From positions 1 through 52,028 of the forward strand of contig JAIPCU010000004.1 of NCBI GenBank assembly GCA_021738045.1: DNA of 52,028 bases, read 5' to 3'. Shown piece after piece: positions 17,305 through 52,028 of this stretch (position 1 is its first letter; every line of letters begins with the position of its first letter). The notes under the pieces are model-generated. The model was not told the origin of the DNA. It worked only from the letters and a program-made list of their open reading frames with translations, and ran no database searches. The position numbers were made by a program, and so were the translations under genes. This DNA comes from Candidatus Methylopumilus sp. (GTDB lineage: Bacteria > Pseudomonadota > Gammaproteobacteria > Burkholderiales > Burkholderiaceae_B).

Positions 17305-17354
17305 CTTAAGGTTTATGAGTGAAAAGGGTAAAAGTCCGCTCGCGCCGAGCGATC

Positions 17355-18566: not shown

Positions 18567-18572
18567 TGCTGT

Positions 18573-20038: not shown

Positions 20039-20118
20039 AAAGGTCTATTAAAATATTGGTCGGGACTGATAACCGAGCGCCTGTTGTACATTGCTCAGTC
20101 ACGGTAACGTACCCAGCC

Positions 20119-22188: not shown

Positions 22189-22213
22189 GTCTTTTTACTT
22201 GGCAACTCTCCCT

Positions 22214-30573: not shown

Positions 30574-33500
30574 AGAACAATCTGCTGGGCAAGACCCGCT
30601 TTCAGCGCGCGAAGAGTCCTATCGCCAGGCTTTACAAAAAGCGACCCAGACGATTCGGCAGTTGCTTGCAGAGAATGCCGCCTTGCAAAAAAAAGAGCCA
30701 ATCGCGATCATCGGGATGGCTTGTCGTTTTCCTGCGGGTGCCAATAGTCCAGAGCAATACTGGAACTTATTAGATCAAGGCGTTGACGGCGTCACCGAAG
30801 CGCCGGAGACGCGCTGGAAGATCTCAGATTATCTATCGAGCGACAAGCTTGCCCCCGGAAAAATGTACACAGCGCGGGGCGGTTTTATCGATCAGCCAGT
30901 GGATGAGTTTGACGCTCGCTTCTTTGGCATATCGCCTAGAGAGGCGAACGGCCTAGACCCACAGCAACGACTTCTTCTTGAGGTGAGCTGGGAAGCTCTT
31001 GAAGATGCTGGCATATTGCCTGCAACACTGAAACATAGCCGTACCGGTGTCTATGTTGGGCTCTCGGGCGATGACTACGCGCGCTGTCACAGACACTCGG
31101 GCGCACCCCACACGATTGACGCTTACTCATTAACCGGAACGACACCAAGCACTGCAGCCGGCAGAATTTCTTACACCTTGGGCCTTCAAGGCCCAAGCAT
31201 GGCGCTCGACACAGCCTGCTCTTCATCACTGGTCGCCCTCCACTTGGCGACTCGAAGCCTGCGAAGCGGTGAAACCGATATGGCTTTGGTCGGCGGAGTC
31301 AACTTAATCCTGTCACCAGAAAACCACATCGCCTTTTCCAAACTTCAGGCAATATCGCCTGATGGTCAGTGTCGCAGCTTCGACGCGAAAGCTAACGGCT
31401 ACGTGCGCAGTGAAGGGTGTGCCATGGTGCTGCTCAAACGTGAGTCAGATGCCCTACGCGATGGTGACAAGGTGCTAGCAGTTATTCGCGGCACTGCAAT
31501 TAATCAAGATGGTAAGACGAACGGCTTGGCCGCGCCAAACGGACAAGCGCAACAAGCAGTCATACAGGAAGCATTTAAAGATGCTGGCGTGACGCCTGCC
31601 CAAATTGAGTACCTCGAAGCGCACGGCACCGGCACATTACTGGGCGATCCAATTGAACTTGAGGCCATTGGGCAGGTCATGAGTGGGCATCGTGATAGCC
31701 GCCTGCCCGTTGGCTCGTCAAAGTCCAACATCGGTCACATGGAGCCGGTTGCTGGCCTCGGTGGCTTAATTAAAATCGTCTTGTCACTGCAACACGATTC
31801 GATACCCGCCAACTTACATTTCAATCAAGCCAATCCGCATGTTGACTGGACTGAATTACCGCTGGATATCGTGGATCAGCCTCGCGACTGGCCTAAACAT
31901 TCCAGTGCCCGGATTGCGAGTTTAAGTTCCTTTGGCTTTAGTGGTACCAATGCGCACGTCGTGATCTCTGATTCGACCGAGACTAGAGCGCTTTCGCCAG
32001 ACGCGCAGACGCCTTCAGTTCCAACAGCAGAACGACCTCTTCACGTGTTGAGTTTGAGCGCGCTGAATGAAAAAAGCCTCGAGACCTTGGCTCGTGCCTA
32101 TCTACAAAAGCTTGAGCACTTAGCCACTCACCTGTTGGCAGATTTATGTTTTTCGGCGAACACCACCCGCACTGCTTTTGGTCAGAGGATGGCACTCGTT
32201 GCCTCTGATCGTGACAGTTTGATGCAGGGGCTGCAACGTTTTCTGGCTAAAGCCACCACGCCGAATCTGCATTGCGGCCAACTAGACTTAAAGACAGCCT
32301 CGCACCGTATGGCTTGGCTCATGACCGGACAAGGGTCGCAGTATGCCGGAATGGGCGCTGAACTCTATGGCCGCGAGCCAGCCTTCACAAAAGCGATTGA
32401 TCGCTGTGCCGTGCAGCTAGACTCATATTTGGATGCCCCGCTCACGACGGTGTTGTTTGACACCAATTACGCCAAGCTCAACCAAACCGGTTATACGCAG
32501 CCCGCGCTCTTTGCGCTCGAGTACGCTTTGGCGCAAACTTGGCTCTCTTGGGGCATACAACCCGACCTGCTGGCTGGGCACAGTGTGGGCGAATATGTTG
32601 CGGCTTGCCTGGCCGGTGTGTTTAGCCTAGAAGATGGTTTAAAGCTAATTGTTGCGCGTGCAAGCTTGATGCAAGCTCTGCCTGCGGGCGGCACGATGGC
32701 TGCGATCTTTGCCGACGAGTCAACAGTTCTTAGCGCCTTGACTCTGCTAGATCTACATCAAGACTGCGACATTGCTGCAATCAATAGTTCGAGTGAAACC
32801 GTGATTGCAGGTCGTCAAGCTGCCGTTACAAAACTGATTAGTCACTTTCAAGCAGGCAAGATTCAAACGCGTGAGCTTAAAGTTTCACACGCCTTTCACT
32901 CGACTCTGATGGAACCCATCCTGAAAGAGTTTGAGGCTGTGGCGCAAGACGTAGCATTTAAGCCTGCAACCATACCGCTCATTTCGAATGTGACTGGCAA
33001 ACTCGCGGGCACTGAAATTCTTACCCCCGCTTACTGGGCTTCTCATATTCGCTTACCTGTTCGCTTTGCTGAGACGCTCAAAGCGCTGCGTGAGCAAGGT
33101 GCTAGAAATTTCCTTGAAATTGGGCCTCATCCTGTGCTGACCAGCATGGCAAAAGGTCAGCTTCAAGCTGACGAAGACGCATACTTTGCGTCAAGCCTGC
33201 AAAAAGGACGCTCGGCTTGGGAGACGATGACAAACAGCTTAGCGGGGCTATCTGTTCAAGGCGTGTCGGTTGACTGGGACGGCTTCGATCGGCCCTTTAA
33301 CCGCTCGCGGCAGTCTGTACCGACCTATCCATTTGATCGTCAGCGCTACTGGAGCGATGATGGTGAAGCCTTTGCCAAGCAACAGAGCATGGCCGATGTG
33401 CGGCCTACCAGCGATACCGTTGCGCCCCTTTTCTACCAAACTGTCTGGAAATCCCTACCCAGAACGCAGCCTCAAACGAGCTCTGCACAGAGCAAGGTCG

Positions 33501-35323: not shown

Positions 35324-38300
35324 GTGACATGACGTCTGCAACCACGTTAACGCCTCTGCAAAAAGCTTATGCGGCGATTACTCAGCTTCGCCAAAAAGTT
35401 GCTCAGCTTGAGAAATCCGCGCACGAGCCAATTGCCATTGTCGGTCTGAGTTGCCGTGCGCCAGGAGCCAATACACCAGAGCAATTGTGGTCGTTGATTC
35501 GCGATGGCAAAGATGCAATTACCGAAATCCCCGCAGAGCGCTGGGACGCACAGCGCTATTTCGATCCAAAGCCTGGACAGCCGGGTAAGTCATACACCCG
35601 CCGTGGCGGGTTCATTGAAGGTGCCGATCAGTTTGATCCTGCCTTTTTTAACATCTCGGCAAGAGAAGCCGAGGGCATGGATCCACAACAGCGCATTTTG
35701 CTTGAGGTTGCCTGGGAGGCACTTGAACGCGCCGGTATCGCTGCAAACACATTAGCTGGGACCGCGACGGGGGTCTTTATCGGCGTCACAGCGAGCGACT
35801 ATGGCCTGCTACAAGCCATGGACACCTCTTCACAGGAAGTCAACCCTTACTTTAATACCGGTACGCCATTGAATGGCTGCGCTGGTAGATTGTCGTATGT
35901 CATGGGGCTGCAAGGGCCCTGCATGGCGATCGACACCGCGTGCTCTTCGTCCTTGACCGCTATTCATTTAGCCTGCTCAGCGCTGCGCGCGAAAGAGTGC
36001 GACGCGGCGTTGGCAGGTGGTGTGAACCTCACTCTGTCGCCCCTGCTCTACGTCACCCTCTCCGCGGCCGGGATGATGGCGCCAGACGGACAATGCAAAA
36101 GTTTTGATGAGGCGGCAAACGGCTACGTACGTGGCGAAGGCTGCGGCATTGTCGTACTTAAACGCTATTCCGATGCGCTTGCCAACGGCGATCAAATTCT
36201 TGGCCTGATTCGGGGCAGTGGTGTCAATCAAGATGGCGCAAGTAGTGGTTTTACCGTTCCAAACGGCGTTGCGCAGCAAAATCTAATTCGCCAGACACTT
36301 GAGCGGGCCGGCGTCGCACCACAAGATATTGATTATGTTGAAGCACATGGAACTGGCACGCCGCTTGGAGATCCCATCGAGGCGCAGGCTCTAGGCAATG
36401 TGCTTGGGCAGTCACCAACACGCGTGCAACCCCTGATGGTGGGATCGATCAAATCCAACATCGGACACCTTGAGTCGGCCGCGGGCGTCATGGGTTTGAT
36501 CAAGTTGGTCCTGGCCATGCAAAACGAGCTTATTCCTCGAACGCTACATTTGCACCGACCCAATACCCGCATTGACTGGAAAGGCCTGAATATTCAGCCT
36601 CTACACGAACCTGTTGTGTGGCCGCGCACTGAAGCCAAGACACGCTTTGCGTCGGTGAGCGCGTTTGGTGCCAGCGGCAGCAACGCTCATCTCGTACTGG
36701 AAGAAGCGCCTGCGCCAACAGCCCAGCCGACTGGTATCCGTTCACGCAGCGCGCAAGTGTTAGCGCTCTCAGGCAAAACAGACACTGCCTTGAAAGACCT
36801 TGCCAAACAACTGCGCGCTCACCTCGCTACGCACACCGAGCTCTCGTTTGAGCAACTATGCTTCAATCAAAATACGGGTCGCAACCAGTTTAATCATCGG
36901 CTTGCACTGATAGCCAATCACCGCCAGCAGGCGCTTGACGCTTTGGTTGCTTTCGCTGAAAACCGCCCATCAGAGGCTATCCAGCTCGGACGTCAAGTTG
37001 CAGGAAAAGTACCTAGCCCAGTTTTTTTGTTTACCGGTCAGGGTGGCGTCTATGCAGGCATGGGGCACGAGCTGTATGAGACGCAGCCTGTTTATCAGCA
37101 GGCGATTGATCGCTGCGCGCAAGAGCTTGAAACACTGAGTGACGTTCCGCTGTTATCTGTCTTGAGCCCGGATAGCGCGCTGTCAGGTAACTACCTCTCG
37201 CAGGCGCGGTATGCCCAACCTGCACTCTTTGCTGTGCAGTATGCGCTGGCAAGTTTGTGGCGCTCGTTTGGCACTGAACCTGCTGCGGTACTTGGGCATA
37301 GCATCGGCGAATACGCCGCGGCCTGTGTTGCGGGCGCGCTTTCGTTGAGCGATTCTTTGAAACTCGTTGTTAAACGTGCTGTTTTGATGCAAACGCTTGA
37401 GACTGCGGGCGGTATGACTGCCGTGTTTGCAGACGAGCAAACCGTTCGACAGGCGATCAGTCCTTATCTTGCAGAAATCGACCTAGGCGTCGTCAACAGT
37501 CAAAATAACGTGGTGGTATCCGGAAGCCCGTCTATCATCAAACTTGCTCTGGCACCATTGGTGGCCTCTGGCGTTCAAACGATTGATCTGACCGTCACAC
37601 ACGCGTTTCATTCGCCGCAAATGCAATTGATTCTTGAGCCCTTCGAGCAGTTTGCAAAAGGGATCGAGGCCAAAGAACCCGAAGTGCTTTATGTCTCGAG
37701 CGTGACTGGCAAGGTATTGACCAACGAGCAGGCGCTTGATGCGCAATATTGGCGCCGTCACTGCCGAGACACCGTTCAGTTTTCTTCGGGGTTAAAGACC
37801 TTGATTGACCGGGGCCACACACTGTTTATCGAGATTGGGCCTGGACAAGTCTTGAGCAATCTTGGGAAACAAGTCCAACCGGAGGCGCAGTTCCTGCCCT
37901 CAATCACCCACAAACAAACCGACTGGAAAACGCTCTCTCAGTCAGTGGCGAAGGCTTTCGTTGTGGGCGCTCAAATCGACTGGTCTGGCTTTGAAGCTGG
38001 CCATTCAACGCAAAAAATCACTCTACCCTCTTACTCGTTTCAACGTAAACGCTATTGGATTACTCAAAAGGATTCAGCAATGATTACCCCAAGCAACAAC
38101 GGTGCTACAGCAACTGTTGTCAAACCGGAAGTCGTACGTCATCAACACGTACTAACTAAGTTGTGTGAACTGTTTTCTGTGTTGCTGCGCATTGCTCCTG
38201 CTGACATTGACGTACACGCTCAACTCGTTGAGATGGGCGCAGACTCGCTTGTGCTAGTTTCGGGCGTGAGCGTGATTGAAGACAATTTCGGCGTCAAGCT

Positions 38301-41300
38301 AGAAATTCGCCAATTCTTCGAAGAAATTACAAGTCTGGATGCGATCGCGGCTTACCTTGCCCAACACTCGATACTTGAGTTCGGTCAACCAGCGCCCGCC
38401 GCTGCGCATGCAGCTGCGCCCGTCGTTGCAGCGACGACACCAACGCTGACTGCGCCTCAGCTCGCGACGCCTCAGGTAGTCGTGCCCCAAGCCGTTGCAC
38501 CACAAGTTGTTGCACCCACTTTTGCCATGCAACCAATGCCCGCCACACAGCCGATGGTGACAAGCTATGCCCAACCGGTTTCGGCGGAGCACATGAATGC
38601 GATGCAGCAAATCGTCATGGCGCAAACACAACTCATGTCGCAACAGCTGGCGATCTTGACCGGCAGCGCGAGTGCGATACAAGCCGTGCAAACAGCACCA
38701 GCGGCTCAACCGCTGAGCCCCACGCTGCCTGCGGGCGTCGTACAGCATACAAGTGTTACGTCGCATACGAGCGCACAGACTCAAACTGCTGCACACGTGG
38801 TGGCTCAACCTCAAGCGACCAAGGCCGTGCCTGCTCCGGTGGCTCCGGTAGCAGACGCTGACGATCGCTCGTCTCCCCTGAGGGCGCTGAACAGCCCCAT
38901 TGTGCCCAATAACTCAGGCATGACCCCACAACAAAGCGCGCACTTGGCCGCACTGGTCGAGCGCTACCAAGCCAGAACAGCTAAGTCAAAAGCGTTAGCC
39001 CAAGCCGCTCGCCCCAAGTTATCAGACAGCCGTGCAAGCGTTGGCTTTCGTTTTTCAACCAAAGAAATTCTATATCCCATCACTGGTGTTGAATCGACCG
39101 GTTCGCGCTTACGCGATATCGACGGTAATGAATATGTCGATTTGACGATGGGCTTTGGGGTGCTGCTGTTTGGCAGCCGCCCTGACCACATGAAAGGTGT
39201 GCTTGAAGCTGAGATTCAGCAGGGCTTTCAGCTCGGCCCGCGCTCAGAGCATATGCAAGAGATCGCTCAACTCTTCACTGAAATTACCGGTCATGAGCGC
39301 GTCGGCTTCACCAACTCAGGGACAGAAGCGATCATGATCGCGCTGCGTTTGGCGCGCGCAGCAACAGGGCGTGACAAGATTGTCATTTTTGACCGGGCCT
39401 ATAACGGTCATTCTGACGGCACGCTGGCAAAGACTGTTCGCTCGTTGAGCGGTGAACTGAACTCAGAGCCTGTGGCGCCGGGCATTCCATTGAATGTCGC
39501 TAAGGATGTTCTCGTCTTGGACTACGGCAATCCAGAATCGCTTGAGATTATTCGCAAGCACGCGCACGAGCTGGCGGCAGTGTTGGTTGAACCGGTTCAG
39601 AGCCGGCGACTCGATTTGCAACCAGTTGAATTTTTACGCGAGTTGCGCTCGCTGACCAAAGAACACGACGTCACGTTGATTTTTGACGAAATGGTCAGCG
39701 GCTTTAGAGCCCATCCCGCCGGCTTTCAAGGCCTGTTTGGTATTAAAGCGGATCTTGCCACATACGGCAAAATTGTTGGCGGAGGCACACCCGTTGGTGC
39801 AGTCGCTGGCGACGCTCGGTTCATGGACGGAATTGATGGCGGAATGTGGCAGTACGGAGATGCCTCGTACCCGACCGCAAAGCGTACCTATTTCGGCGGA
39901 ACGTTTAATCAACACCCCTTCTCGATGGCTGCGACCTTAGCCACGCTCAGACATCTCAAGGCCTGTGGGCCTGCCTTACAAGACAACCTGAATCGCCGTA
40001 CCGCTGCTTTTGCGCAACGCCTGAATACTTTTTTTGAAGAAGAAGAGTTGTCGATTCGAGTTGTTCATTTTGCCTCGACCTTTGGGTTCAAGTTTTCGGG
40101 CAATATCGAGATGTTCTTCTACCATTTGCTTGAAAAAGGCGTCTACATCTGGGAGTGGCGTGCCTGCTTTTTATCAACGGTTCACACGGACGAGGACCTT
40201 GATTTCGTCGTCAAGGCAATCAAAGAAGCGATCCAAGAAATGCGCAACGGTGGATTTTTGCCTCCGCGTGGTGGCGGGATCCCTTTAACAAAAAAGACTG
40301 AACCTGTGTCTTTGGCTCTAGCCACAGGTCCAAGCAAGAGCGCGAAGGCCTCAAAGCCTGCGCTTGCAACAGCGAGCCACTCGGCACCCAAAGCCCTTAA
40401 CTTTGGACTGTATTTTTTTGGCAATTATGATGCAGCGTTTTCAAACGATAAATATGATTTGCTCATGCAAGGCACCCGCTATGGCGACAAAAATGGCTTT
40501 AATGCCATTTGGCTGCCTGAACGGCATTTTGATAAGTTTGGTGGATTTTCACCCAACCCCTCAGTGCTTGCCGCGGCACTAGCACGTGAAACCGACACGA
40601 TTCAGTTACGTGCGGGTAGCGTTGTCATGCCGTTGCACCACCCTCTACGGGTGGCAGAAGAGTGGGCACTGGTCGACAATCTGTCGAATGGCAGAGCTGG
40701 CATCAGTTTCGCCTCTGGTTGGCACCCCAACGATTTTGCCCTCGCACCAGAAAAATTCTCAAACAACCGTGAATTTACTTTTGATGGGATCACCACGGTC
40801 AAGCGCTTGTGGTCCGGCGAGAGCGCTCAGTTTATGGGTGGCGACAACAAAGAGGTCACGCTCAGCATTTATCCCAGGCCAAAACAGCAATCCTTACCGG
40901 CTTGGCTGACGGTTGTTGGTAACCCCGATACCTACCGTAAAGCGGGCGAGATGGGCTTGGGGATTTTGACCAATCTGCTCGGACAATCGCTTGAAGAGCT
41001 AGAAAAAAATATTGCCATTTACAAACAAGCGTTGACCGACCATGGGCATCCCCCAGAGATTGGTAATGTGGTCGTATTGATCCACACTTTTATTTGTGAA
41101 GATCACACAACCGCAGTCGAAACTGCGCGTGCGCCAATGTGCGACTATTTATTGTCGAGCCTCTCTTTATTTCAAAAGATGGCCGAAAGCTTGCCCGCGC
41201 ATCTACGCGATGTCAACCGGGCCAGTGAAGCAGACAAAGCATTTATCGTGGCCAAGGCTTACGAGCGTTACATCGCGGATCGCGCCCTGATTGGTTCACC

Positions 41301-44300
41301 TGAACACTGTCAGCCTATGCTTGAGCGCATGTCTCGCATGGGTGTGAACGAAGTCGCTTGTTTTCTGGACTTTGGTGTTGATGCCGCATCGGTCATGGCG
41401 AATCTACCCAACCTGACTCGCCTAAAGAGCACCTACGCAGACTCACTCATCGCTGGGCAACAAATCAGTGATCAGCCGGCAAACAGTTTTGCCTTAAGTG
41501 AAGCACAGCACCAGTTGTGGCTGCTCGCGCGGATGGATCCAGACGGCAACAAAGCGTATAACGACCCAGCGTCACTTGTGCTAACCGGTGCACTCAAGGT
41601 CAATCTTCTTGAGCAATCCTTGCAGAGCATTGTCGAACGCCATGAATCACTTCGAACTCGGATTGAGGCTGACTCCGGTCAATGGCAAGTCGTCGAACCC
41701 GTGACACAGGTCGTACTGGATATCGTTGATTTATCTGCACAGACCGACCCGCACCAGGCCGCACGTGAATGGATGCTTACCAAGTCTGGCGCCTTAGTGA
41801 ACTTTTCACTAGACAAACTTTTTCATCCAACGTTACTTAAACTTGCCCCTGACCAACACATCCTTGTATTGAGCGCGCACCACATTATTAGCGATGGTCC
41901 TTCAATGGGCCTCGTGATTCAAGAAACGCTAGCACTGTACGAATCAGCTTGCAAAGGTGAGGTCGTGAAGCTGCCCACGGCGCCACGTTACGCCGATTTC
42001 GTGAACTGGCATGCGCAGCAAGCGCGAGCGCCACACATGCAAACGCATGAATTGTACTGGCTCAAGCAATTTGCACAGCCGATTGAACCTTTAGCGCTTG
42101 CCTGCGATTATGTACGACCTGAAGTTAAAACATTTAACGGCACGCGGCTTCGACACGTCATGGCCAAGACGCTCGCGTCAGATCTCAAAGTATTGGCGAG
42201 CCGTAATGGTTGCACGCTCTACATGCTGTTGATTGCTGCGTATTCCGCTTTACTTCATCGGCTGACGGAGCAACAAAAACTGGTGGTCGGTGCGCCTTAC
42301 GCGGGACGCGGCATCGATGGCACGCAAGGACTCGTCGGCTACTGTATCCACATGCTTCCAATTTTGAGCGAATTACCACCTGGTGCGAGCTTTAGCGCTC
42401 ATTTGGCGACGATCAAGCAAACGCTACTAGAGGCCTATGAGCATCAAGACTATCCGTTCGCCAGACTGATCGACAAACTAAACCTTAAGCGCGACCCGAG
42501 TCGCTCAGCGTTGGTGTCGACGATTTTCAATCTTGAACGCTTACCCAAAGACATCTCAGTCGCAGAATTAGTCGCTGCGCCCTATCCGCAACCCATTCGC
42601 TATACGCGCGTCGATCTAACGTTCACCTTGAATTTGATTGGCGATGATATTGTTCTTGAAGCCGATTACAACACCGACCTCTTTCAAGCATCGTCAATCG
42701 AAAGAATGGTGCAGCAATATGAATCTGTGCTTGAAGCCATCTGCTTGAACATCGACTCACCCGTTGCGCATATTTCTCTGCTGAGCCAAGACAAGCGTGA
42801 AGCGCTGCTAGCCAGTTGGAAAACACGCGCACCTGCAGCACCGGCCACTTGCTTTCATACGCTTTTTGAACAAGTTGCAAGCACTCATGCGGACAGCAAT
42901 GCTGTGCTTCATCATCCAGCCACCTGCCCAGCAATCACTTACGATGCCCTCAATCGACAAGCCAACCAGCTCGCACGACGCTTGCGCAGCTTAGGTGTTG
43001 GGCCTGACCAGCGTGTTGGTGTCTGCCTGCCGCGTTCAACTGACTTAATCGTGGCGATGCTGGCAACAATGAAGGCCGGTGGTGCATATCTGCCGATGGA
43101 TCCGTCGTACCCAGCAAACCGTTTGAATTACCTGCAGCACGACGCAAAGGTCAGCGTGCTGATCACCACGACGGCCATTGCCGAGCAAATTGAATTTTCT
43201 ACGGCGCAACTGTTTTGTATTGACCAACAACGCGGGACGACCGAGCTTGAGATTGATACGAATTTATCACTGAACACTGATCCCTCAAACTTGGCTTACG
43301 TAATTTACACGTCGGGCTCAACAGGTCAACCCAAGGGCGCGCTGATGACGCACGCCGGTATGACTAACTATCTGCAATGGGCGGCTCACGCTTACGAGGC
43401 CTCTGAGGGCGATGGCTCACCGGTGCTAGGGTCAATTGGCTTTGACGCCACAATCACCAGTATCTTTGTCCCCCTCGTCGCTGGTAATCAAGTCATTTTG
43501 TTGCCAGAGGGTGTTGAGTTTGAAGCAATACAAGCTTTAGTGAACTCGCCTTTTGAGTACAGCTTTATCAAGCTGACGCCAGCGCATCTCGAAGTTTTGA
43601 ATACCTTACGCGCAAAAAATCCGACGGCTGATGCGAGGCTAGCAAAATATTTGATCCTTGGTGGTGAGGCGCTAGCAGGAGCGAGTCTTGACCCGTGGTT
43701 CGAACATACCTCAACGTTGGGCATCAACGAATACGGCCCCACCGAGACGGTGGTGGGATGCTGCACGTTTGTGGCAACTCAACCGACGGGTGGCTCAGTA
43801 CCAATCGGACAGGCAATTCAAGGGACACGACTCTACGTGCTAGACGCTTACCTTGAGCCTGTGGCACTTGGTATGGAAGGCGAACTGTACATCGGAGGTG
43901 CAGGACTCGCCCGCGGCTATCATGACCGACCCGGTCAAACGGCGAGCGTGTTTGTTCCCGATCCGTTCTGTGGCGAATTAGGTGCCGCGGGTGATCGCTT
44001 ATACAAAACGGGCGATCGCGTGAAATATCGCGAAGACGGCTGCCTAATCTTTTTAGGTCGTATGGATAATCAAATTAAACTCAATGGCTTCAGAATAGAA
44101 CCCGGAGAAATCGAAGCCGCCTTGGTGGATCTGGCTACCGTTCGCGAAGCGGCCGTCGTGGTTCGTGAAGACCAGCCTGGCCAAAAGCGCCTGGTGGCCT
44201 ACATCACCCTTGACCATAACGCCCCGACCCAAACCACAGCGCATCTGAGACAACAGCTTTTGAAGGTGTTGCCCGCACACATGGTGCCCGGGGTCTTTGT

Positions 44301-44757
44301 CACCTTGACTGAGATGCCGCTTACCTCCCACGCGAAGATTGATCGGCAACAGTTACCCGCGCCGTCCTCTGAACAAACAGCGCCCGCTGGCGATTTGACC
44401 TTACCTTCGACTGAGCGCGAACAACAGATCGCCGCCGCTTGGTGCGAAGCTTTATCTTTAACCAAAGTCGGCGTGCATGAGAACTTCTTTGACATTGGTG
44501 GCAATTCGCTGTTATTGCTACAAATCTTCAAAAAAATCGAACCACTTCTTCCGGCTCATTTCTTAATTGTTGATCTGTTTCGCTATCCAACGATCGCGAG
44601 CCTCTCAGAGCAATTAGGTCGACAAGAGTCTACACAAACCACCAATATCAGCGAGATTCAACAACGGGCGGCGCTACAAAAGTCAGCCGCGACGGAGCAG
44701 GCTAAGCGCCAACGCGCCGCTAAAAGTGTTGTCAAGAGTCGTCGTCAAACCGCATAG
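35320..44757 (+). CDS. Hybrid PKS-NRPS: KS-AT-ACP-aminotransferase-monooxygenase-C-A-PCP
   Basis: A 3145-residue multienzyme. Approximate order: docking helix; KS (37-460, Cys208); malonyl AT (Ser661, GHSIGEY, HAFHS); ACP (Ser976); Ala/Pro/Gln-rich linker (1020-1225); class III aminotransferase (1240-1650, PLP Lys1484 in TYGKIVGGG); luciferase-like FMN monooxygenase (1690-2040, LYFFGNYD and ISFASGWHPNDFAL); C (2058-2480, HHIISDG at 2187); A (2513-3011); PCP (Ser3063 in GGNSLL). The AMT turns the beta-ketone into an amine, and the oxygenase, of the MupA/microginin type, should hydroxylate the alpha carbon. Reading the A-domain pocket by hand gives DATKIGEV-K, closest to the Asn code DLTKLGEV. 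The gene starts in an ATGA overlap with the previous module. Confidence 0.94.
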   Translation: MSDMTSATTLTPLQKAYAAITQLRQKVAQLEKSAHEPIAIVGLSCRAPGANTPEQLWSLIRDGKDAITEIPAERWDAQRYFDPKPGQPGKSYTRRGGFIEGADQFDPAFFNISAREAEGMDPQQRILLEVAWEALERAGIAANTLAGTATGVFIGVTASDYGLLQAMDTSSQEVNPYFNTGTPLNGCAGRLSYVMGLQGPCMAIDTACSSSLTAIHLACSALRAKECDAALAGGVNLTLSPLLYVTLSAAGMMAPDGQCKSFDEAANGYVRGEGCGIVVLKRYSDALANGDQILGLIRGSGVNQDGASSGFTVPNGVAQQNLIRQTLERAGVAPQDIDYVEAHGTGTPLGDPIEAQALGNVLGQSPTRVQPLMVGSIKSNIGHLESAAGVMGLIKLVLAMQNELIPRTLHLHRPNTRIDWKGLNIQPLHEPVVWPRTEAKTRFASVSAFGASGSNAHLVLEEAPAPTAQPTGIRSRSAQVLALSGKTDTALKDLAKQLRAHLATHTELSFEQLCFNQNTGRNQFNHRLALIANHRQQALDALVAFAENRPSEAIQLGRQVAGKVPSPVFLFTGQGGVYAGMGHELYETQPVYQQAIDRCAQELETLSDVPLLSVLSPDSALSGNYLSQARYAQPALFAVQYALASLWRSFGTEPAAVLGHSIGEYAAACVAGALSLSDSLKLVVKRAVLMQTLETAGGMTAVFADEQTVRQAISPYLAEIDLGVVNSQNNVVVSGSPSIIKLALAPLVASGVQTIDLTVTHAFHSPQMQLILEPFEQFAKGIEAKEPEVLYVSSVTGKVLTNEQALDAQYWRRHCRDTVQFSSGLKTLIDRGHTLFIEIGPGQVLSNLGKQVQPEAQFLPSITHKQTDWKTLSQSVAKAFVVGAQIDWSGFEAGHSTQKITLPSYSFQRKRYWITQKDSAMITPSNNGATATVVKPEVVRHQHVLTKLCELFSVLLRIAPADIDVHAQLVEMGADSLVLVSGVSVIEDNFGVKLEIRQFFEEITSLDAIAAYLAQHSILEFGQPAPAAAHAAAPVVAATTPTLTAPQLATPQVVVPQAVAPQVVAPTFAMQPMPATQPMVTSYAQPVSAEHMNAMQQIVMAQTQLMSQQLAILTGSASAIQAVQTAPAAQPLSPTLPAGVVQHTSVTSHTSAQTQTAAHVVAQPQATKAVPAPVAPVADADDRSSPLRALNSPIVPNNSGMTPQQSAHLAALVERYQARTAKSKALAQAARPKLSDSRASVGFRFSTKEILYPITGVESTGSRLRDIDGNEYVDLTMGFGVLLFGSRPDHMKGVLEAEIQQGFQLGPRSEHMQEIAQLFTEITGHERVGFTNSGTEAIMIALRLARAATGRDKIVIFDRAYNGHSDGTLAKTVRSLSGELNSEPVAPGIPLNVAKDVLVLDYGNPESLEIIRKHAHELAAVLVEPVQSRRLDLQPVEFLRELRSLTKEHDVTLIFDEMVSGFRAHPAGFQGLFGIKADLATYGKIVGGGTPVGAVAGDARFMDGIDGGMWQYGDASYPTAKRTYFGGTFNQHPFSMAATLATLRHLKACGPALQDNLNRRTAAFAQRLNTFFEEEELSIRVVHFASTFGFKFSGNIEMFFYHLLEKGVYIWEWRACFLSTVHTDEDLDFVVKAIKEAIQEMRNGGFLPPRGGGIPLTKKTEPVSLALATGPSKSAKASKPALATASHSAPKALNFGLYFFGNYDAAFSNDKYDLLMQGTRYGDKNGFNAIWLPERHFDKFGGFSPNPSVLAAALARETDTIQLRAGSVVMPLHHPLRVAEEWALVDNLSNGRAGISFASGWHPNDFALAPEKFSNNREFTFDGITTVKRLWSGESAQFMGGDNKEVTLSIYPRPKQQSLPAWLTVVGNPDTYRKAGEMGLGILTNLLGQSLEELEKNIAIYKQALTDHGHPPEIGNVVVLIHTFICEDHTTAVETARAPMCDYLLSSLSLFQKMAESLPAHLRDVNRASEADKAFIVAKAYERYIADRALIGSPEHCQPMLERMSRMGVNEVACFLDFGVDAASVMANLPNLTRLKSTYADSLIAGQQISDQPANSFALSEAQHQLWLLARMDPDGNKAYNDPASLVLTGALKVNLLEQSLQSIVERHESLRTRIEADSGQWQVVEPVTQVVLDIVDLSAQTDPHQAAREWMLTKSGALVNFSLDKLFHPTLLKLAPDQHILVLSAHHIISDGPSMGLVIQETLALYESACKGEVVKLPTAPRYADFVNWHAQQARAPHMQTHELYWLKQFAQPIEPLALACDYVRPEVKTFNGTRLRHVMAKTLASDLKVLASRNGCTLYMLLIAAYSALLHRLTEQQKLVVGAPYAGRGIDGTQGLVGYCIHMLPILSELPPGASFSAHLATIKQTLLEAYEHQDYPFARLIDKLNLKRDPSRSALVSTIFNLERLPKDISVAELVAAPYPQPIRYTRVDLTFTLNLIGDDIVLEADYNTDLFQASSIERMVQQYESVLEAICLNIDSPVAHISLLSQDKREALLASWKTRAPAAPATCFHTLFEQVASTHADSNAVLHHPATCPAITYDALNRQANQLARRLRSLGVGPDQRVGVCLPRSTDLIVAMLATMKAGGAYLPMDPSYPANRLNYLQHDAKVSVLITTTAIAEQIEFSTAQLFCIDQQRGTTELEIDTNLSLNTDPSNLAYVIYTSGSTGQPKGALMTHAGMTNYLQWAAHAYEASEGDGSPVLGSIGFDATITSIFVPLVAGNQVILLPEGVEFEAIQALVNSPFEYSFIKLTPAHLEVLNTLRAKNPTADARLAKYLILGGEALAGASLDPWFEHTSTLGINEYGPTETVVGCCTFVATQPTGGSVPIGQAIQGTRLYVLDAYLEPVALGMEGELYIGGAGLARGYHDRPGQTASVFVPDPFCGELGAAGDRLYKTGDRVKYREDGCLIFLGRMDNQIKLNGFRIEPGEIEAALVDLATVREAAVVVREDQPGQKRLVAYITLDHNAPTQTTAHLRQQLLKVLPAHMVPGVFVTLTEMPLTSHAKIDRQQLPAPSSEQTAPAGDLTLPSTEREQQIAAAWCEALSLTKVGVHENFFDIGGNSLLLLQIFKKIEPLLPAHFLIVDLFRYPTIASLSEQLGRQESTQTTNISEIQQRAALQKSAATEQAKRQRAAKSVVKSRRQTA

Positions 44758-44762: not shown

Positions 44763-47700
44763 ATGGAAGCGCTGCCCGTGAATCAAGAAGTCGAGAACAC
44801 AGAACTTGGAGATGTCATTGCCATTATCGGCATGGCAACCCGCCTGCCAGGAGCACCCAACCTGCAGGCCTACTGGGAACTCCTTCGAGAAGGTAAAGAA
44901 GGCATTGTGCATTTTTCGAAAGAAGAATTGCTTGCCGCTGGCGTTCCTGAAGACGTGATTGAGGATCCCGCTTTTCGGAGTGCAAAAGGCTACCTCGCTG
45001 ATGTGGATATGTTTGACGCCGCTTTTTTTGGCATCTCTCCGCGTGAAGCGGAGTTGATGGACCCACAACACCGCGTCATGATGGAGTGTGCCTGGGAAGC
45101 CATGGAACACGCCGGCTACGAGCCGTCGTCTTACCCAGGACGCGTGGCGATTTTCACCAGCGCTGGAATGAACACCTATCTGGCATTCAATATCATGACT
45201 CACCCAGGTCTGATTGAAGACGTGGGCGGTTTTCAGTTGTCGATGTACAACGACAAGGACTTCGTTCCAACACGTATTGCCTACAGCATGAACACTCACG
45301 GGCCTGCGATCGATATCGGTACGGCCTGTTCATCATCGCTGGTTGGCATCCATATGGGGTGTCAACATTTATTGTCTTATCAGTCCGACATGGTGCTCGT
45401 GGGTGGGGTCACGGTACACTTTCCGCAACAGACCGGCTACATACACGAGGCGGGCTCGGCGTATTCTCCAGATGGCCATTGCAGACCGTTTGACGCGACC
45501 GTCAGCGGCCTGGTGGATGGCAATGGCGCCACCGCCGTGATTCTGAAGCGCCTGAGTGACGCTATTGCAGATGGTGATCACATTCATGCCATCGTTCGCG
45601 GCAGTGCCATTAACAACGACGGCTCAGACAAGATTGGCTACTCGGCGCCCAGCATTGATGGTCAAGCCGAAGTCATTCTTGAAGCACAAGCTGCAGCAAG
45701 CGTGCATCCTGACGACATTAGCTATGTTGAAGCACACGGAACCGCCACCCCTCTGGGGGATCCGATCGAGGTTGCAGCACTCACTCAGGCCTTTCGCTCT
45801 GGCACAGAGCGTAAGGCCTACTGCGGCTTAGGGTCGGTCAAGTCTAATATTGGCCACGTCGATAAAGCTGCAGGGATGGCGGGCCTTATCAAGATTGTTT
45901 TGTCCCTACAAAATGAACAACTTGCACCAAGTCTGAGGTTCGAGTCGCCGAATCCCAAGCTCAATTTACCCAATACGCCTTTTTACGTTGTCAATAAACT
46001 GCAGGCGTGGCCCCGTGTCGAGGGTACGCCACGTATCGCTAGTATCAGCTCGTTCGGTGTTGGCGGTACAAATTCGCACGCCATTTTGCAAGAAGCCCCG
46101 CCACAAGCTGCTGGAAGCGAATCGCGTTTAAGTCAGTTGTTAGTCCTCTCAGCTAAGACTGAGTCAGCGCTGACCGCGCAGGCTAATCAACTCGCGCGCT
46201 TCCTCTCTGAACACCCCACTGTCAGCTTGCCAGACGTAGCGGCGACGCTGCAACGGGGACGAAAGCGGTTTGCGCACAGGCTCGCCATCGTATGCTCAAG
46301 CGTCCAAGATGCTGTGAGTCGCCTCGAACACGCCGCACACACACACACGGATCGCAGTTCAACTGGTCGCGTGACCTTCATGTTTACCGGACAAGGCAGT
46401 CAATACGCCACCATGGGTAAGGCACTGTACCGAGCCGAGTCCGAATTCAAGACACACTTGGATCAATGCGCAGATATTCTTTTACCCCTACTGGGCAGAG
46501 ATATTAGAAGCGTCCTTCTGTGCGAGGACGCTGAACGGGAACAGGCTCAAGAGTGGTTGCGACAAACAGAATTGGCACAACCCACTTTATTCTCGATTGA
46601 ATATGCGCTTGCCAAGTTGTGGATGAGTTGGGGCGTTGAGCCTAATGCAATGATCGGCCATAGCCTAGGCGAGTATGTCGCGGCTTGCCTCGCTGGCGTA
46701 TTTAGTCTTGAGGATGGCCTGAAGCTCGTCAGCGCGCGTAGTCGACTGATGCAGAGCATGCCAGCCGGAAGCATGCTGGCAGTCAGCCTCTCCGAAGCCC
46801 GCGTTCGTGAAACGCTAGTGAGCGCACAATCAAAATTAGACATTGCAGCAGTCAATGCCACGAACCTGTGCGTCGTGTCTGGCCCAACTGAGGAAATTCA
46901 GGCCTATCAAACGTCCTTGCAAGCCCAGAACATTCAAACGCGACCACTGCACACCTCGCATGCTTTTCACTCAGCCATGATGGAGCCCATGCTCGACGCG
47001 TTCGCAGCCATTCTGAAGACTGTGACGCTGCGGCAACCCTCAATTCGTTACGTCTCAAATGTCACGGGCACCTGGGTGACAGATGCCCAGGCGACTAGCG
47101 CTCAATACTGGCTTGATCATATCCGCCAAGGCGTGAAATTTCACGCTGGTCTGCAAGCCGTGCTAGAGAAGTTTCCAACCGATGTCCTGTTAGAGGTCGG
47201 TCCGGGACGCACTCTGACCAGTTTGGCACGGATGACACCAGTCTCAAGTGGTGAACCTCCAGTTTGCATACCAAGCCTTCCACCGGCCGAGGCCTCGAGC
47301 CCCGCTGATCAGTTCATACTCAATAGTCTCGGTCAACTTTGGATGTCGAACTGTGACATTGATTGGGACGGCTTTTACGCCAATGAGCAACGGCTTCGAC
47401 TGCCATTGCCGACCTACCCCTTCGAACGAGCAAAGTTTTGGATTGAGCCACGACTCAGTCAAAACGTCGATCAGGTATCTCTGGAAAGTGCTGCCCGCCG
47501 TACTCAACCAAAGGAATGGTTTTACGCGCCTGATTGGAAAACCACCGCAGCGCTCAATTCAGACACCACACAAAGCGCACGACGCTGTGCCATTGTTCAC
47601 TCGTCCTGCGCCTTGAGCGCAGCGCTTGAGCAATCGCTTGTTGCAAAGGGCCACGCGGTCACAATGCACGCTGTAGAGTCGCTTTCGGCCGCTTCGTTTG

Positions 47701-49361
47701 ACTCAAGCGACATTGTGTTTATCATCGATGTAGACGCTGACACTTTGAGTGACACCTCAGAAAAGCGCGTTCAAGAGCGTGAAACAATCCCTTTGCACCC
47801 AGTGCTCTCTGTTGTTCGCGCGTTGGCGGCCACGGGGGCAGAGTCCTTGGTCACGCTCTGCCTCGTGTCGCAACGAGCCTTGAGTCTAAGCGCCGATAGT
47901 CACCTTAATCCCGTGCGTGCTGCCTTGACGGGGTTGCTCAAGACAATTCCTTACGAACACACTGACATTCGTACGCAGTTCATAGATGTCACTCGGCCCA
48001 AACAGTCGAGTCAGCTCAATCGTGTCGCTCAAGCTATTTGCCACGAAGCACTGGCACTCCAGCCCGCTGAAATGGTTGTTTTGCGTCAAGGGGCCAGATC
48101 AGTTCCTCAACTCAGGGCATTCACAGTACCCAGCACAACGAACGAACTCGCCTCAGACCCACATGAACAATCGGCCTTGGTACATAAGAACGGTGGTTAC
48201 CTCATCCTGGACGGTCTGACCGATATCGGTATGGTCTTCGCTCAAAGCCTTGCGCAGTTCGGTGTAGCGAAATTGGTGCTGACAACCAGTCAAACACTGA
48301 CTCCCGCACTGTCAGACAAGTACCAGGCAGGATTGGCAGTGTTGGCAGAAAAAGGCGTGCAAGTGACCCTCAAAGAGGTCAACGCCAATTCTCTTCAAGA
48401 GCTTGAACAACTGACAACGCAAACACTCGCGGCCTGGGGGCACCTGGACGGCATCGTTGACGCCTCAGACATGCATGCCAACAAACCAAACGGCGTTTGC
48501 GCCACGATTGAGTGGTCAGACGTCGAAGCTTATCTGCAACAACAGCAACAACGTATACAGGCACTTGAACAGGCGACAGAAAAGCTCTCACTCGATTTTT
48601 GTATGTTGATGTCATCATTGAGCGCCCAAATCGGAGCCTTGGGCCAGGCGCCGCACAGCATCGCCAGCGCGTATCTTCAAGCCTGCGTGCATCAACTCAA
48701 CCGACGTAGTGCGTTTCCATGGATGATTGTTCAATGGGACGCGTGGAAAGCTGGCGAGACTTCAAGCGTTGCGTCTGAGCGGGCCAAAGACTTCACGATT
48801 TCGCCCTCTGAAGGCGCGCTGGCCTTTAGTCAGTTGTTGAAGCTTGGCGCAGTGCAGTGCGTCATCATCGCCACGAACCCACCCATGTTGCGTCGGGCAG
48901 GCATTTTGAAGCAAACCGATGCCAGCATCCCTGAGCAGGCGAGCGCCGAACGTCGCTACGACCGGCCAAATATCTCGAGCGCCTTTGTTGCCCCGCGCAA
49001 TGAACACGAGCAGAGTGTTGCCCAAAGTTGGCAGAAATTTTTGGCCATTCATCAAGTTGGCGTTGAAGATAACTTTTTCGATCTGGGCGGCCACTCGTTG
49101 TTAGGCGCTCAATTGACCATGGAGCTTCAGCAGAAATTTGGTGTTCTGGTAGACATAGGTTTGCTCTTTGCACATCCAACAATCGCCCAACTCAGTGCAG
49201 TGCTGATTGAGAGGCAAGTGGCACAAACAAATGAAGCGCAGCTTTTAGCGCAGTTAGACAAACTGGAAACCATGACTGACGAGGAAGTCCAGGCACTATT
49301 GGCACGAGATGACTTGCCACCCGAGCTCGCACGAGCACTTGGCCTCGATTCTGAAACCTAA
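44763..49361 (+). CDS. Type I PKS module: KS-AT-(inactive KR)-ACP
   Basis: A 1532-residue module starting five bases after the previous stop. KS spans about 19-440 (Cys189 in GTACSSS; VEAHGTATPLGDP). AT (545-850; Ser634 in GHSLGEY; HAFHS) should select malonyl-CoA. A KR-like region (1140-1330) is degenerate: the nucleotide loop is LDGLTDIG instead of TGGxGxxG, and the catalytic Tyr and Asn are replaced by His1298 and Ser in QAPHSIASAY. It should therefore not reduce. The carrier (Ser1445 in GGHSLLG) resembles a PCP, which fits transfer to the next NRPS. The C-terminal acidic tail is a probable docking region. The module should add a C2 unit to the aminoacyl chain and leave a beta-ketone. Confidence 0.93.
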   Translation: MEALPVNQEVENTELGDVIAIIGMATRLPGAPNLQAYWELLREGKEGIVHFSKEELLAAGVPEDVIEDPAFRSAKGYLADVDMFDAAFFGISPREAELMDPQHRVMMECAWEAMEHAGYEPSSYPGRVAIFTSAGMNTYLAFNIMTHPGLIEDVGGFQLSMYNDKDFVPTRIAYSMNTHGPAIDIGTACSSSLVGIHMGCQHLLSYQSDMVLVGGVTVHFPQQTGYIHEAGSAYSPDGHCRPFDATVSGLVDGNGATAVILKRLSDAIADGDHIHAIVRGSAINNDGSDKIGYSAPSIDGQAEVILEAQAAASVHPDDISYVEAHGTATPLGDPIEVAALTQAFRSGTERKAYCGLGSVKSNIGHVDKAAGMAGLIKIVLSLQNEQLAPSLRFESPNPKLNLPNTPFYVVNKLQAWPRVEGTPRIASISSFGVGGTNSHAILQEAPPQAAGSESRLSQLLVLSAKTESALTAQANQLARFLSEHPTVSLPDVAATLQRGRKRFAHRLAIVCSSVQDAVSRLEHAAHTHTDRSSTGRVTFMFTGQGSQYATMGKALYRAESEFKTHLDQCADILLPLLGRDIRSVLLCEDAEREQAQEWLRQTELAQPTLFSIEYALAKLWMSWGVEPNAMIGHSLGEYVAACLAGVFSLEDGLKLVSARSRLMQSMPAGSMLAVSLSEARVRETLVSAQSKLDIAAVNATNLCVVSGPTEEIQAYQTSLQAQNIQTRPLHTSHAFHSAMMEPMLDAFAAILKTVTLRQPSIRYVSNVTGTWVTDAQATSAQYWLDHIRQGVKFHAGLQAVLEKFPTDVLLEVGPGRTLTSLARMTPVSSGEPPVCIPSLPPAEASSPADQFILNSLGQLWMSNCDIDWDGFYANEQRLRLPLPTYPFERAKFWIEPRLSQNVDQVSLESAARRTQPKEWFYAPDWKTTAALNSDTTQSARRCAIVHSSCALSAALEQSLVAKGHAVTMHAVESLSAASFDSSDIVFIIDVDADTLSDTSEKRVQERETIPLHPVLSVVRALAATGAESLVTLCLVSQRALSLSADSHLNPVRAALTGLLKTIPYEHTDIRTQFIDVTRPKQSSQLNRVAQAICHEALALQPAEMVVLRQGARSVPQLRAFTVPSTTNELASDPHEQSALVHKNGGYLILDGLTDIGMVFAQSLAQFGVAKLVLTTSQTLTPALSDKYQAGLAVLAEKGVQVTLKEVNANSLQELEQLTTQTLAAWGHLDGIVDASDMHANKPNGVCATIEWSDVEAYLQQQQQRIQALEQATEKLSLDFCMLMSSLSAQIGALGQAPHSIASAYLQACVHQLNRRSAFPWMIVQWDAWKAGETSSVASERAKDFTISPSEGALAFSQLLKLGAVQCVIIATNPPMLRRAGILKQTDASIPEQASAERRYDRPNISSAFVAPRNEHEQSVAQSWQKFLAIHQVGVEDNFFDLGGHSLLGAQLTMELQQKFGVLVDIGLLFAHPTIAQLSAVLIERQVAQTNEAQLLAQLDKLETMTDEEVQALLARDDLPPELARALGLDSET

Positions 49362-49386: not shown

Positions 49387-49599
49387 ATGACAACTGAACA
49401 AACTGAAACACAATACATTGTGGTGATCAACCATGAAGAGCAATATTCAATTTGGCCTGACTTCAAAGAGATCCCTCTAGGCTGGAAAGATGCGAATTTT
49501 CGTGGGGCAAAGGCGGCCTGCCTTGAACATATCAACACCGTATGGACGGACATGCGACCCCTGAGCTTACGTTTGAAAATGAATGCCACAACAGCGTAA
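49387..49599 (+). CDS. MbtH-like protein
   Basis: A 70-residue MbtH-family protein. The start ATG follows a GGAG with seven-base spacing; an in-frame extension to 49309 overlaps the PKS end and lacks a site. The family motif appears as VVINHEEQYSIWPDFKEIPLGW, followed by TVWTDMRPLSLR, carrying the conserved tryptophans. MbtH proteins bind NRPS adenylation domains and help them fold or become active. Its place in the operon predicts that at least one adenylation domain here, probably the downstream one, depends on it. Length is typical. Confidence 0.97.
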   Translation: MTTEQTETQYIVVINHEEQYSIWPDFKEIPLGWKDANFRGAKAACLEHINTVWTDMRPLSLRLKMNATTA

Positions 49600-49636: not shown

Positions 49637-49930
49637 ATGAATCATCAAAAACCCTACGAGGCCGTTATTCGCAAATGCTGGGCCGATCCAGCTTTTAAGG
49701 CACGCCTACTCGCTGATCCAATGACTGTCATGAAAGAAGAAGGTATGTCAGTGCCGATCGGAGTCACCAGCGTTGCCGCGATTGAAAATGGGCCGTCGCA
49801 GTTGACCTTGATGATTCCTCCTAATCCTGACGACCTGACAGAAGAACAAAAGGCTGGGATCGTTGCGGGTGGCTATTTCATATTTTCGCGAGGCGGTTTC
49901 TCTTGCGACTTTGTCGTTCACAATCGATAA
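49637..49930 (+). CDS. NHLP-type (nitrile-hydratase-like leader) peptide or precursor
   Basis: A 97-residue protein. Residues 7-35 (EAVIRKCWADPAFKARLLADP then VMKEEG) resemble the start of nitrile hydratase alpha subunit, and the middle (VAAIENGPSQLTLMIPPNPDDLTEEQKAGIVAGG) matches the NHLP leader pattern ending in Gly-Gly at 78-79. The remaining 18 residues, YFIFSRGGFSCDFVVHNR, look like a core peptide with one Cys and two Ser. NHLP leaders normally belong to ribosomal peptide precursors cut by peptidase-containing transporters. Here the gene sits 37 bases after MbtH and 10 before the NRPS. It may be a precursor, or an accessory protein reusing the NHLP fold. An AGGT lies about seven bases before the start. 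The metal-binding CxxCSC loop of nitrile hydratase is absent. Confidence 0.8.
   Translation: MNHQKPYEAVIRKCWADPAFKARLLADPMTVMKEEGMSVPIGVTSVAAIENGPSQLTLMIPPNPDDLTEEQKAGIVAGGYFIFSRGGFSCDFVVHNR
49874..49927 (+). other. Putative core peptide after the Gly-Gly site of the NHLP-type protein
   Basis: The 18 codons after the VAGG site encode YFIFSRGGFSCDFVVHNR. The content is mostly aromatic and hydrophobic with a single cysteine. It also contains an internal Gly-Gly, so a shorter core starting at FSCDF is possible. Cleavage is inferred from leader similarity only; no peptidase is encoded in the window. Confidence 0.4.
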
Positions 49931-49940: not shown

Positions 49941-52028
49941 ATGACGTCTTTAGCCAATCGACTGGCGGGTCTTTCTCCCGCTAAGCGAGCGTTGCTTCAA
50001 AGAGTAACCGCCTTAGCCGATGGAAAGGCAGGTGAACTTGAGCCCATTGCCCCTCGAGCGGCGGATGCTGCGCCCCCCCCGCTTTCGTTTGCTCAGCAGC
50101 GTCTTTGGTTTCTCGATCAGCTTGAGGGGGCGAGTGCCACCTACAACATGCCGGTCACGGTCAGGCTAGAGGGTCCGCTTAATCTTCGCGCGCTCGAACA
50201 AGTTTTTAAAGAGATCGTCAGGCGTCACGAATCTTTACGATCAAATTTTCTTGCTGAAAACGGTCAGTCACGACTCGTGATTCATGACTCGATGGATGTC
50301 CAGACTCGATTGATCGATATCAGCGATGGTGCTCCAGAGCAGCAAGAAGAGCGCATGATGGCGCTGGCCGTTCAAGAGGCTCAGACGCCCTTTGACCTGG
50401 CGCGCGACCAGCTACTACGAACCACGTTAATTAAGCTTAACGAGCAACACCACATTCTATTGCTGACGATTCATCATATCGTTTCTGATGGTTGGTCGAT
50501 TGGTAACGTACTGTTGCACGAAATCACCACGCTTTATGTCGACTACTCAGAGGGCCGCGATTCGACCCTCGAGCCTCTGCCCTTGCAATACGGTGACTTT
50601 GCACTTTGGCAGCGCGAGTGGCTAAGCGGTGCCCGTCTTGAGGCGCAGGTTGAATACTGGAAAACACAGCTTAGGGGCGTGCCCACTCTGCTTGAACTTC
50701 CCACGGATCATCCTCGCCCAGCGATACAAAGTTTTGTTGGACAGACTTACAATTTTTCATTAAACAAAAATTTATTAGTCGCACTGAAGACGCTCAGTCA
50801 AGCGTCAGGCACCACGCTGTTCATGACGCTTTTGGCGGGCTTTTCGGCGCTGTTGGCGCGTTACAGCAGACAAGAAGACGTCGTTGTTGGTTCGCCCGTC
50901 GCGAATCGCACACGTAAAGAACTCGAGCCATTAGTCGGATTCTTTGTCAATGCCTTAGTCTTTCGCAGTACGTTTACCGAGAATATGACCGGTATCGAAT
51001 TGCTCAAACAGATTCGCCAGACCTGTTTAGATGCCTACAAACATCAAGATGTGCCCTTTGAACGACTCGTCGAGGCGATCAAGCCCGAACGTAATGCGAG
51101 CTTCAGCCCGCTGTTTCAAGTCATGTTTATTTTGCAAACGCAAAATCAAGAGCGCACCGGCTTGAAAGCAGGCGAACTCACCATGACCAGCCTGCCAATG
51201 GATGCGGGCACTTCGATGTTTGATTTGACGCTGAAGCTAGAAGAGCAAGGTGGTGAAATTCAAGGTGAGTTCGAGTACAGCACTGCGTTATTTGAAACCG
51301 CCACGATCAAGCGCTTTATCGAGCACTATTTGCAATTGCTTGAGGGCCTGGTGATGCACCCAGAAGAGCGCCTCTCAAGCCTCCCACTCATGCTCGCGCC
51401 TGAACGCAAGACCGTTCTACTGGATTGGAATTCAACCACCTGTGCCGTAGATGCTGAACAAAGCATTTGTAGTCTTTTTGAACAGCGCGTTCAACAGCAT
51501 CCAAACAAAATAGCGTTGCGCTTTGATGGCCAAGCGCTAACGTATGCAGAACTTAATCAGCAGGCGACTCAACTCGCAGCGTATTTGCGTACGCAAGGCG
51601 CGACAACTGAAACACTTGTCGGGCTATGCCTCAATCGCTCAAGCGAACTGGTCATCGGTGCGCTCGCTATTTTAAAGACCGGGGCCGCTTACGTACCTCT
51701 TGATCCAGCCTACCCGCTCGATCGCTTGTCTGGGATGATCGAAAGTTCGGGTTTGCAGTTGATTCTTTGTGAACGTGCGACGATCGAAGCCCTACCGAAG
51801 AACATTGGCCAACATGTCCTGATCGATCAAGACAAAGTGACGATCGCGGCATGTGAACATCGCTTCACGCGCCAGACCCTCGCTGACAGCTTGGCTTACG
51901 TGATCTACACCTCTGGCTCAACCGGCAAACCCAAAGGGGTGCAGATCTCCCATCGTGCCTTGCTGAATTTTTTGCTCACCATGCAGCAAAAGCCTGGTTT
52001 CAGCGAAAGTGAGACGCTATTAGCCGTC
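49941..52028 (+). CDS. Nonribosomal peptide synthetase, C-A start (partial, runs off the window)
   Basis: The frame opens at ATG 49941 and is still open at the window end, giving 696 codons. Residues about 48-490 form a condensation domain (PLSFAQQRLWFLDQLE; HHIVSDGWSIG at 178; VGFFVNALVFR), with the look of an LCL type that joins two L-residues. From about residue 510 an adenylation domain begins (ALTYAELNQQA, LKTGAAYVPLDPAYP, and the P-loop AYVIYTSGSTGKPKGV at about 652). The specificity pocket lies beyond the cut, so the amino acid cannot be predicted. It should take the ketide-extended chain from the carrier of the preceding PKS, through the C domain. The remaining modules and the release thioesterase are presumably downstream. 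Confidence 0.95.
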   Translation, partial: MTSLANRLAGLSPAKRALLQRVTALADGKAGELEPIAPRAADAAPPPLSFAQQRLWFLDQLEGASATYNMPVTVRLEGPLNLRALEQVFKEIVRRHESLRSNFLAENGQSRLVIHDSMDVQTRLIDISDGAPEQQEERMMALAVQEAQTPFDLARDQLLRTTLIKLNEQHHILLLTIHHIVSDGWSIGNVLLHEITTLYVDYSEGRDSTLEPLPLQYGDFALWQREWLSGARLEAQVEYWKTQLRGVPTLLELPTDHPRPAIQSFVGQTYNFSLNKNLLVALKTLSQASGTTLFMTLLAGFSALLARYSRQEDVVVGSPVANRTRKELEPLVGFFVNALVFRSTFTENMTGIELLKQIRQTCLDAYKHQDVPFERLVEAIKPERNASFSPLFQVMFILQTQNQERTGLKAGELTMTSLPMDAGTSMFDLTLKLEEQGGEIQGEFEYSTALFETATIKRFIEHYLQLLEGLVMHPEERLSSLPLMLAPERKTVLLDWNSTTCAVDAEQSICSLFEQRVQQHPNKIALRFDGQALTYAELNQQATQLAAYLRTQGATTETLVGLCLNRSSELVIGALAILKTGAAYVPLDPAYPLDRLSGMIESSGLQLILCERATIEALPKNIGQHVLIDQDKVTIAACEHRFTRQTLADSLAYVIYTSGSTGKPKGVQISHRALLNFLLTMQQKPGFSESETLLAV

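Follow-up and report, generated by a model that had tools for sequence, protein, structure and literature searches.

The window, by which we mean the whole 52,028-nucleotide stretch of DNA analysed, is contig 122 of a 2.96 Mb genome (G000) that is 82% complete. An open reading frame on its plus strand (49637-49930) begins with ATG and encodes a 97-residue protein; the gene for an MbtH-like protein (49387-49599) ends 37 bases upstream, and the ATG of an NRPS gene (49941) follows 10 bases downstream. Both gaps agree with those given in an earlier note on this DNA, which had placed the gene between mbtH and the NRPS gene. Read along the plus strand, the order is loading protein-PKS, type II thioesterase, PKS, PKS-aminotransferase-C-A-T, PKS, mbtH, the gene under study and NRPS:

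15667..17304, minus strand, cyclic-peptide-type ABC exporter without a C39 domain (TIGR01194, 302 bits, cut-off 286.2)
22199..29797, plus strand, AMP-binding loading protein fused to a PKS (PF00501 in the first 633 residues)
29794..30573, plus strand, type II thioesterase (PF00975, E 3e-49)
30566..35323, plus strand, PKS with KS-AT-KR-ACP (domain search)
35320..44757, plus strand, PKS with class-III aminotransferase, then C-A-T (PF00202, E 3e-41; domain order from motifs)
44763..49361, plus strand, PKS with KS-AT-KR-ACP, directly 5' of mbtH (domain search)
49387..49599, plus strand, MbtH-like protein (PF03621, E 8e-21)
49637..49930, plus strand, NHLP-family protein of 97 residues (TIGR03793, 58.1 bits; orthologues at the same place in three other genomes)
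49637..49873, plus strand, NHLP leader-like body, residues 1-79, ending in Gly78-Gly79 (TIGR03793 match to residues 7-79; α1-3 and β1-2 in the AF2 model)
49874..49927, plus strand, tail of 18 residues, YFIFSRGGFSCDFVVHNR, most of a β-hairpin in the AF2 model (conserved in G018, S. amnicola and G022; AF2 strands)
49941..52028, plus strand, NRPS beginning C-A and running off the contig end (PF00668, PF00501)

By its profile match, the 97-residue protein is a member of the NHLP family. The TIGR03793 leader_NHLP model, the search that the earlier note had proposed, exceeded its cut-off of 50.9 bits (E 6e-16) and aligned residues 7-79 with profile positions 6-77 of 77, the profile end coinciding with the Gly-Gly, after which only the tail remains. 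The best PDB profile match was the NHLP leader chimera 8TB1 (E 1.6e-14). The observation in the earlier note, an NHLP gene with a leader ending in Gly-Gly and an 18-residue tail in the mbtH-NRPS slot, thus holds, and the two outcomes named there as speaking against it (no score to the NHLP or nitrile hydratase models; a tail from a different, known accessory family) did not occur. The nitrile hydratase α-like front described in the same place stands in part: the N-terminal helices are alike, while the score against Pfam NHase_alpha (PF02979) of 26.5 bits lies just below the cut-off of 27.2. The protein differs from nitrile hydratase α in having no metal-binding CxxCSC segment, and enzyme activity is not expected.

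The layout of the cluster would be of the beta-amino-acyl lipopeptide type, because it combines a loading enzyme, probably FAAL-like given its position, with an aminotransferase. The Sheuella amnicola orthologue of the loading protein has an additional KS-AT-DH-KR-ACP. Besides the exporter, positions 15667-21036 of the window hold genes for a DUF697 protein, a ParA-like ATPase, a methyltransferase and a solute-binding protein. Genes of the ParA-like and DUF697 kinds recur close to the clusters of S. amnicola and G022 and, judged by eye, beside mbtH elsewhere in the genus. A 328-residue protein encoded at 21041-22027 matched nothing in Pfam or NCBIfam (E up to 1) and shares 40% identity with a protein encoded upstream of the loading gene in S. 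amnicola.

Among 32 genomes of the genus that were searched, four carry the tail-bearing gene: the window genome, the MAG B02.bin.46 (G018; JARXAG010000156.1), S. amnicola NBD-18 (G023; NZ_JAAGRN010000005.1) and G022. The G018 protein is identical to that of the window, with four nucleotide differences in the gene, and the two are counted as one allele, leaving three distinct, independent sequences. A scan of contigs with just two N-terminal patterns returned MAG B02.bin.46 and S. amnicola. All four carriers have the order PKS-mbtH-NHLP-NRPS, the gene being co-operonic with the synthetase in each, which is the conservation looked for in an assembly-line accessory. Across the 32 genomes, 23 contained a total of 27 mbtH-like places; the gene was present in the flanking DNA (at most about 1.5 kb, less where a contig ended) of these four only, whose mbtH genes are also the four best mbtH matches (78-100%). 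Profile searches found no tail outside the four carriers in 399 genomes of the order, 369 of the class and 268 of the family, and a profile of the tail, run against stop-to-stop ORFs of 118 sources, recovered the known copies, with the next match at E 0.2. TIGR03793, at E <= 1e-12 across 398 genomes of the phylum, matched the window genome only; the genomes of order, class and phylum were sampled from larger groups. A scan of viral sequences for the NHLP gene gave no match.

The three alleles differ most in the leader. The S. amnicola protein, 95 residues long, is 62% identical overall to that of the window and scores above the TIGR03793 cut-off (55.0 bits), and its tail, FFVFTRGGFSCDFIVHNR, agrees at 14 of 18 positions. 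The G022 allele, 61 residues long from its likely ATG, lacks about 36 residues of the body and keeps both ends; it matches TIGR03793 below cut-off (27.3 bits), in the N-terminal part only, and its NHLP fold can hardly be intact. Its tail, YFIFSRGGFSFDFVIHNR, nevertheless shares 16 of 18 residues with the window tail and 12 of 18 with that of S. amnicola; the G018 tail is identical to YFIFSRGGFSCDFVVHNR. The Gly-Gly lies exactly 18 residues from the C-terminus in all three alleles, and every allele has retained its N-terminal helices (KPYE..KCW.D..FK.RLL.D) and its tail. Because Cys90 is replaced by Phe in G022, no cysteine chemistry is conserved. In the G022 cluster (L048:15835-16077), the type II thioesterase gene is cut down to an 80-residue ORF; having lost most of this gene, the cluster may be decaying.

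Most nucleotide changes in the tail hit the third position of an NHLP codon, and this, together with the orthologues occupying the same slot in three other genomes, rules out a chance ORF. Nei-Gojobori estimates of dN for the tail were 0.102, 0.049 and 0.157 in the three allele pairs with pS of at least 0.74, compared with 0.337 for the leader (window versus S. amnicola) and 0.26 and 0.34 for the N-terminal helices versus G022; synonymous sites are near saturation. These rates are rough, as the tail offers 18 codons in three alleles. As judged from these comparisons, the tail is under purifying selection and is the slowest-changing part of the gene. In known NHLPs, according to PMC2887384, conservation stops at the Gly-Gly and the tails, or cores, are hypervariable. 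The tail studied here is not a hypervariable core rich in modifiable residues, being conserved and not keeping its cysteine.

Two other origins of the tail conservation were considered and rejected. An overlapping NRPS frame does not account for it: that frame is open across the tail in the window genome and G018, but stop codons precede the NRPS start in S. amnicola and G022, and the tail changes sit mostly at NHLP third positions. A copy of a segment of a synthetase domain was likewise not found, short blastp searches against the ORFs of the window and of the S. amnicola cluster giving, apart from the NHLP gene, only matches of 4-10 residues at E 2.8 or worse.

The gene might also be a hitch-hiker or relic of a former RiPP cluster that is functionless today, which we consider improbable. 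Some features would fit a relic, among them the loss of the body in G022 and the lack of any tail-bearing homologue outside the genus among the genomes searched. In addition, a second NRPS of the window genome on contig 94 (L091:2-8788), open for 2929 residues to the contig end, is preceded by a truncated mbtH; the NHLP gene and the mbtH end are absent from this copy, which resembles a G022-like cluster after a deletion; not every such NRPS therefore requires an NHLP in cis. Moreover, an orphan NHLP above cut-off (61.6 bits; L028:9496-9786) occurs in another genome of the genus, G028; it lacks Gly-Gly and tail, and no NRPS or PKS was recognised by eye in the surrounding 20 kb, indicating that stray NHLPs persist in the genus for other reasons. 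However, the reading frame is open in all four genomes, and dN is far below dS in both tail and leader, so that the selection data speak against a relic. The position of the gene has also stayed fixed while its PKS and NRPS neighbours are only 53-59% identical (PKS before mbtH, 55-56%; NRPS N-terminus, 53-59%; loading PKS, 59%); corresponding values are 68% for the type II thioesterase, 41% for the methyltransferase, 51% for the exporter and 78-81% for MbtH.

Peptidase_C39 matched in none of the four carrier genomes, the same search matching 8 of 14 control genomes. LANC_like matched in one carrier (the window genome) and YcaO in another (G022), such that no LanC-like or YcaO enzyme is common to the four genomes. 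SPASM matched in all four, with two open frames of 380-428 residues each in the window genome, G018 and G022; in S. amnicola the match is only the C-terminal part of PqqE, beside the cluster (TIGR02109, 212 bits, cut-off 381). As two of the carriers are incomplete (82% and 86%), it is chiefly S. amnicola (98% complete) and G018 (93%) that speak for the absence of these enzymes. For the types searched, which among radical-SAM enzymes were those with a SPASM domain, the earlier statement that RiPP machinery is missing is borne out.

On contig 84, the window genome encodes a LanM of 1074 residues (TIGR03897, 750 bits), and just downstream (L063:11528-11662) lies what, by eye, is a candidate precursor of 44 residues ending in Cys; the two genes together span L063:8211-11662. 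This LanM was rejected as a general answer for the modifying enzyme, since it has its own candidate precursor and the other three carriers show no LanC-like match.

The context of the Gly-Gly has changed as well. Modifying enzymes bind an LX4L motif at positions -12/-7, according to PMC10858898 and PMC12455567. The three alleles have T/A, D/K and L/S at these positions, LX4L thus being lost in all of them. Of eight other NHLPs submitted to a script, seven could be scored, six with L/L and G051 with V/L; the eighth, from Thiodictyon, reads L/F by eye. Also by eye, G1320, G033 and a further Spirosoma copy read L/L, and Gly-Gly is missing from one Spirosoma copy and from G028. Within the same family, by contrast, an NHLP of G1320 (74.7 bits) and an NHLP-like ORF of G033 (32.3 bits, below cut-off) each lie less than 6 kb from a C39 exporter of the NHLP type (TIGR03796, PF03412).

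The main rival reading, unlikely in our estimation, holds that an unlinked protease cuts after the Gly-Gly and that an 18-mer with little or no modification is exported as a partner of the lipopeptide or as a signal, perhaps through the cyclic-peptide exporter encoded in the window. The exact spacing of the Gly-Gly from the end in all alleles would suit such a cut, as would strong selection on the tail even where G022 has lost the leader body. Three NHLPs on plasmid pTM2 of Tistrella mobilis (L026:11998-13067; L057) provide a parallel. They adjoin the cyclic-peptide exporter in a siderophore NRPS cluster, and neither the roughly 12 kb inspected to one side nor the 28 kb to the other contains an annotated RiPP enzyme, in a gene table that is incomplete. 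Against cleavage stand the missing C39 peptidase, the missing leucine pair at -12/-7, the absence of a shared LanC-like or YcaO enzyme with no more than a SPASM fragment in S. amnicola, and a tail that is conserved, unlike the known cores described in PMC2887384. The pTM2 NHLPs also differ from the window protein in having three different tails, LX4L intact in all three and no place between mbtH and an NRPS gene. They belong to ten plasmid records matching NHLPs, of which seven (H1, H2, H3, H5, H6, H8 and H9; two unannotated) had regions inspected, H4, H7 and H10 lying outside this set.

The ends of the assembly lines bear on a further alternative. Goadvionins and lipolanthines are examples of PKS-RiPP conjugates, and the assembly line could release its acyl-peptide onto the ribosomal tail, with which it shares an operon. 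The G022 NRPS ends after a carrier domain without a thioesterase domain, leaving release there unexplained. The S. amnicola NRPS, however, starts with a C-A-MT-T module, continues with more modules and ends, in its last protein, in a thioesterase domain; no conjugating acyltransferase or ligase was seen among the window proteins scanned (part of the window ORFs), and the tail contains neither Lys nor a conserved Cys. We regard a conjugate of this kind as highly improbable.

The earlier note had left two options side by side, a ribosomal peptide and recruitment of the NHLP fold to the assembly line. The evidence leans toward recruitment over a RiPP, given the absence of C39, LanC-like and YcaO matches confined to single carriers, only a SPASM fragment in S. 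amnicola, the loss of LX4L and the frozen tail; since G022 keeps the two ends of the protein and has lost most of the body, recruitment may have concerned the N-terminal helices and the tail, not the fold itself. An AF2 model of the window protein (mean pLDDT 71.4; alignment of three rows, two of them identical) predicts helices at 6-16, 18-26 and 28-34, strands at 47-52 and 55-60, a short helix, and a hairpin of strands 75-84 and 87-96, the hairpin being of low confidence (block mean pLDDT 57, 69 and 50). With the same low confidence, the model places the Gly-Gly inside the first strand of this C-terminal hairpin.

We tentatively favour the reading that the protein is a domesticated NHLP acting as an accessory subunit, its hairpin-like tail serving the assembly line without being cleaved off. 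This accessory reading fits best with the fixed core, the lost docking motif, the lack of a cleaving exporter and the retained place between mbtH and NRPS. The gene would descend from a RiPP precursor leader that has given up its precursor role and would now encode a small, probably uncleaved accessory of a PKS-NRPS lipopeptide line, made together with MbtH and the NRPS. Its working surfaces may be the N-terminal helices and the hairpin-like tail, with the Gly-Gly in the first strand and an Arg-Gly-Gly at the turn, and it might dock on a domain of the synthetase close to where PKS and NRPS meet. The lack of cleavage, the binding to the synthetase and the effect of that binding are steps we infer. 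The more specific picture, of a RiPP leader-core precursor turned into a resident PKS-NRPS subunit with its former core as a fixed docking hairpin, is one we put forward as possible, though still short of an even chance.

MbtH-like proteins offer an organisational parallel, being likewise small and encoded in the NRPS operon beside the synthetase, here as the direct neighbour; MbtH binds A domains, and the NHLP protein has no MbtH match. In leader sequence and terminal Gly-Gly, the protein resembles NHLP/proteusin leaders (TIGR03793; MprE7, SrpE, PDB 8TB1), and its predicted α1-3/β1-2 order matches theirs. It departs from NHLP/proteusin precursors in lacking a C39 exporter and any LanC-like or YcaO enzyme common to the carriers, in the lost LX4L, in a tail that is frozen instead of hypervariable, and in its place in an NRPS operon.

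As far as these searches show, this would be the first proteusin-type precursor reused as a non-ribosomal accessory. A full-text literature search, with most subscription journals outside its coverage, returned no title or abstract opening describing an NHLP gene in an NRPS operon, and NHLP combined with MbtH gave no match. If the accessory reading is true, precursor peptides can be domesticated, and the protein provides a small new handle on the PKS-to-NRPS hand-over. Genome mining treats NHLPs as markers for RiPP clusters (an example is PMC4558948), and the accessory reading, if true, would advise caution against automatic RiPP calls from NHLPs. S. amnicola NBD-18 is a named isolate that carries the gene, which makes the case testable.
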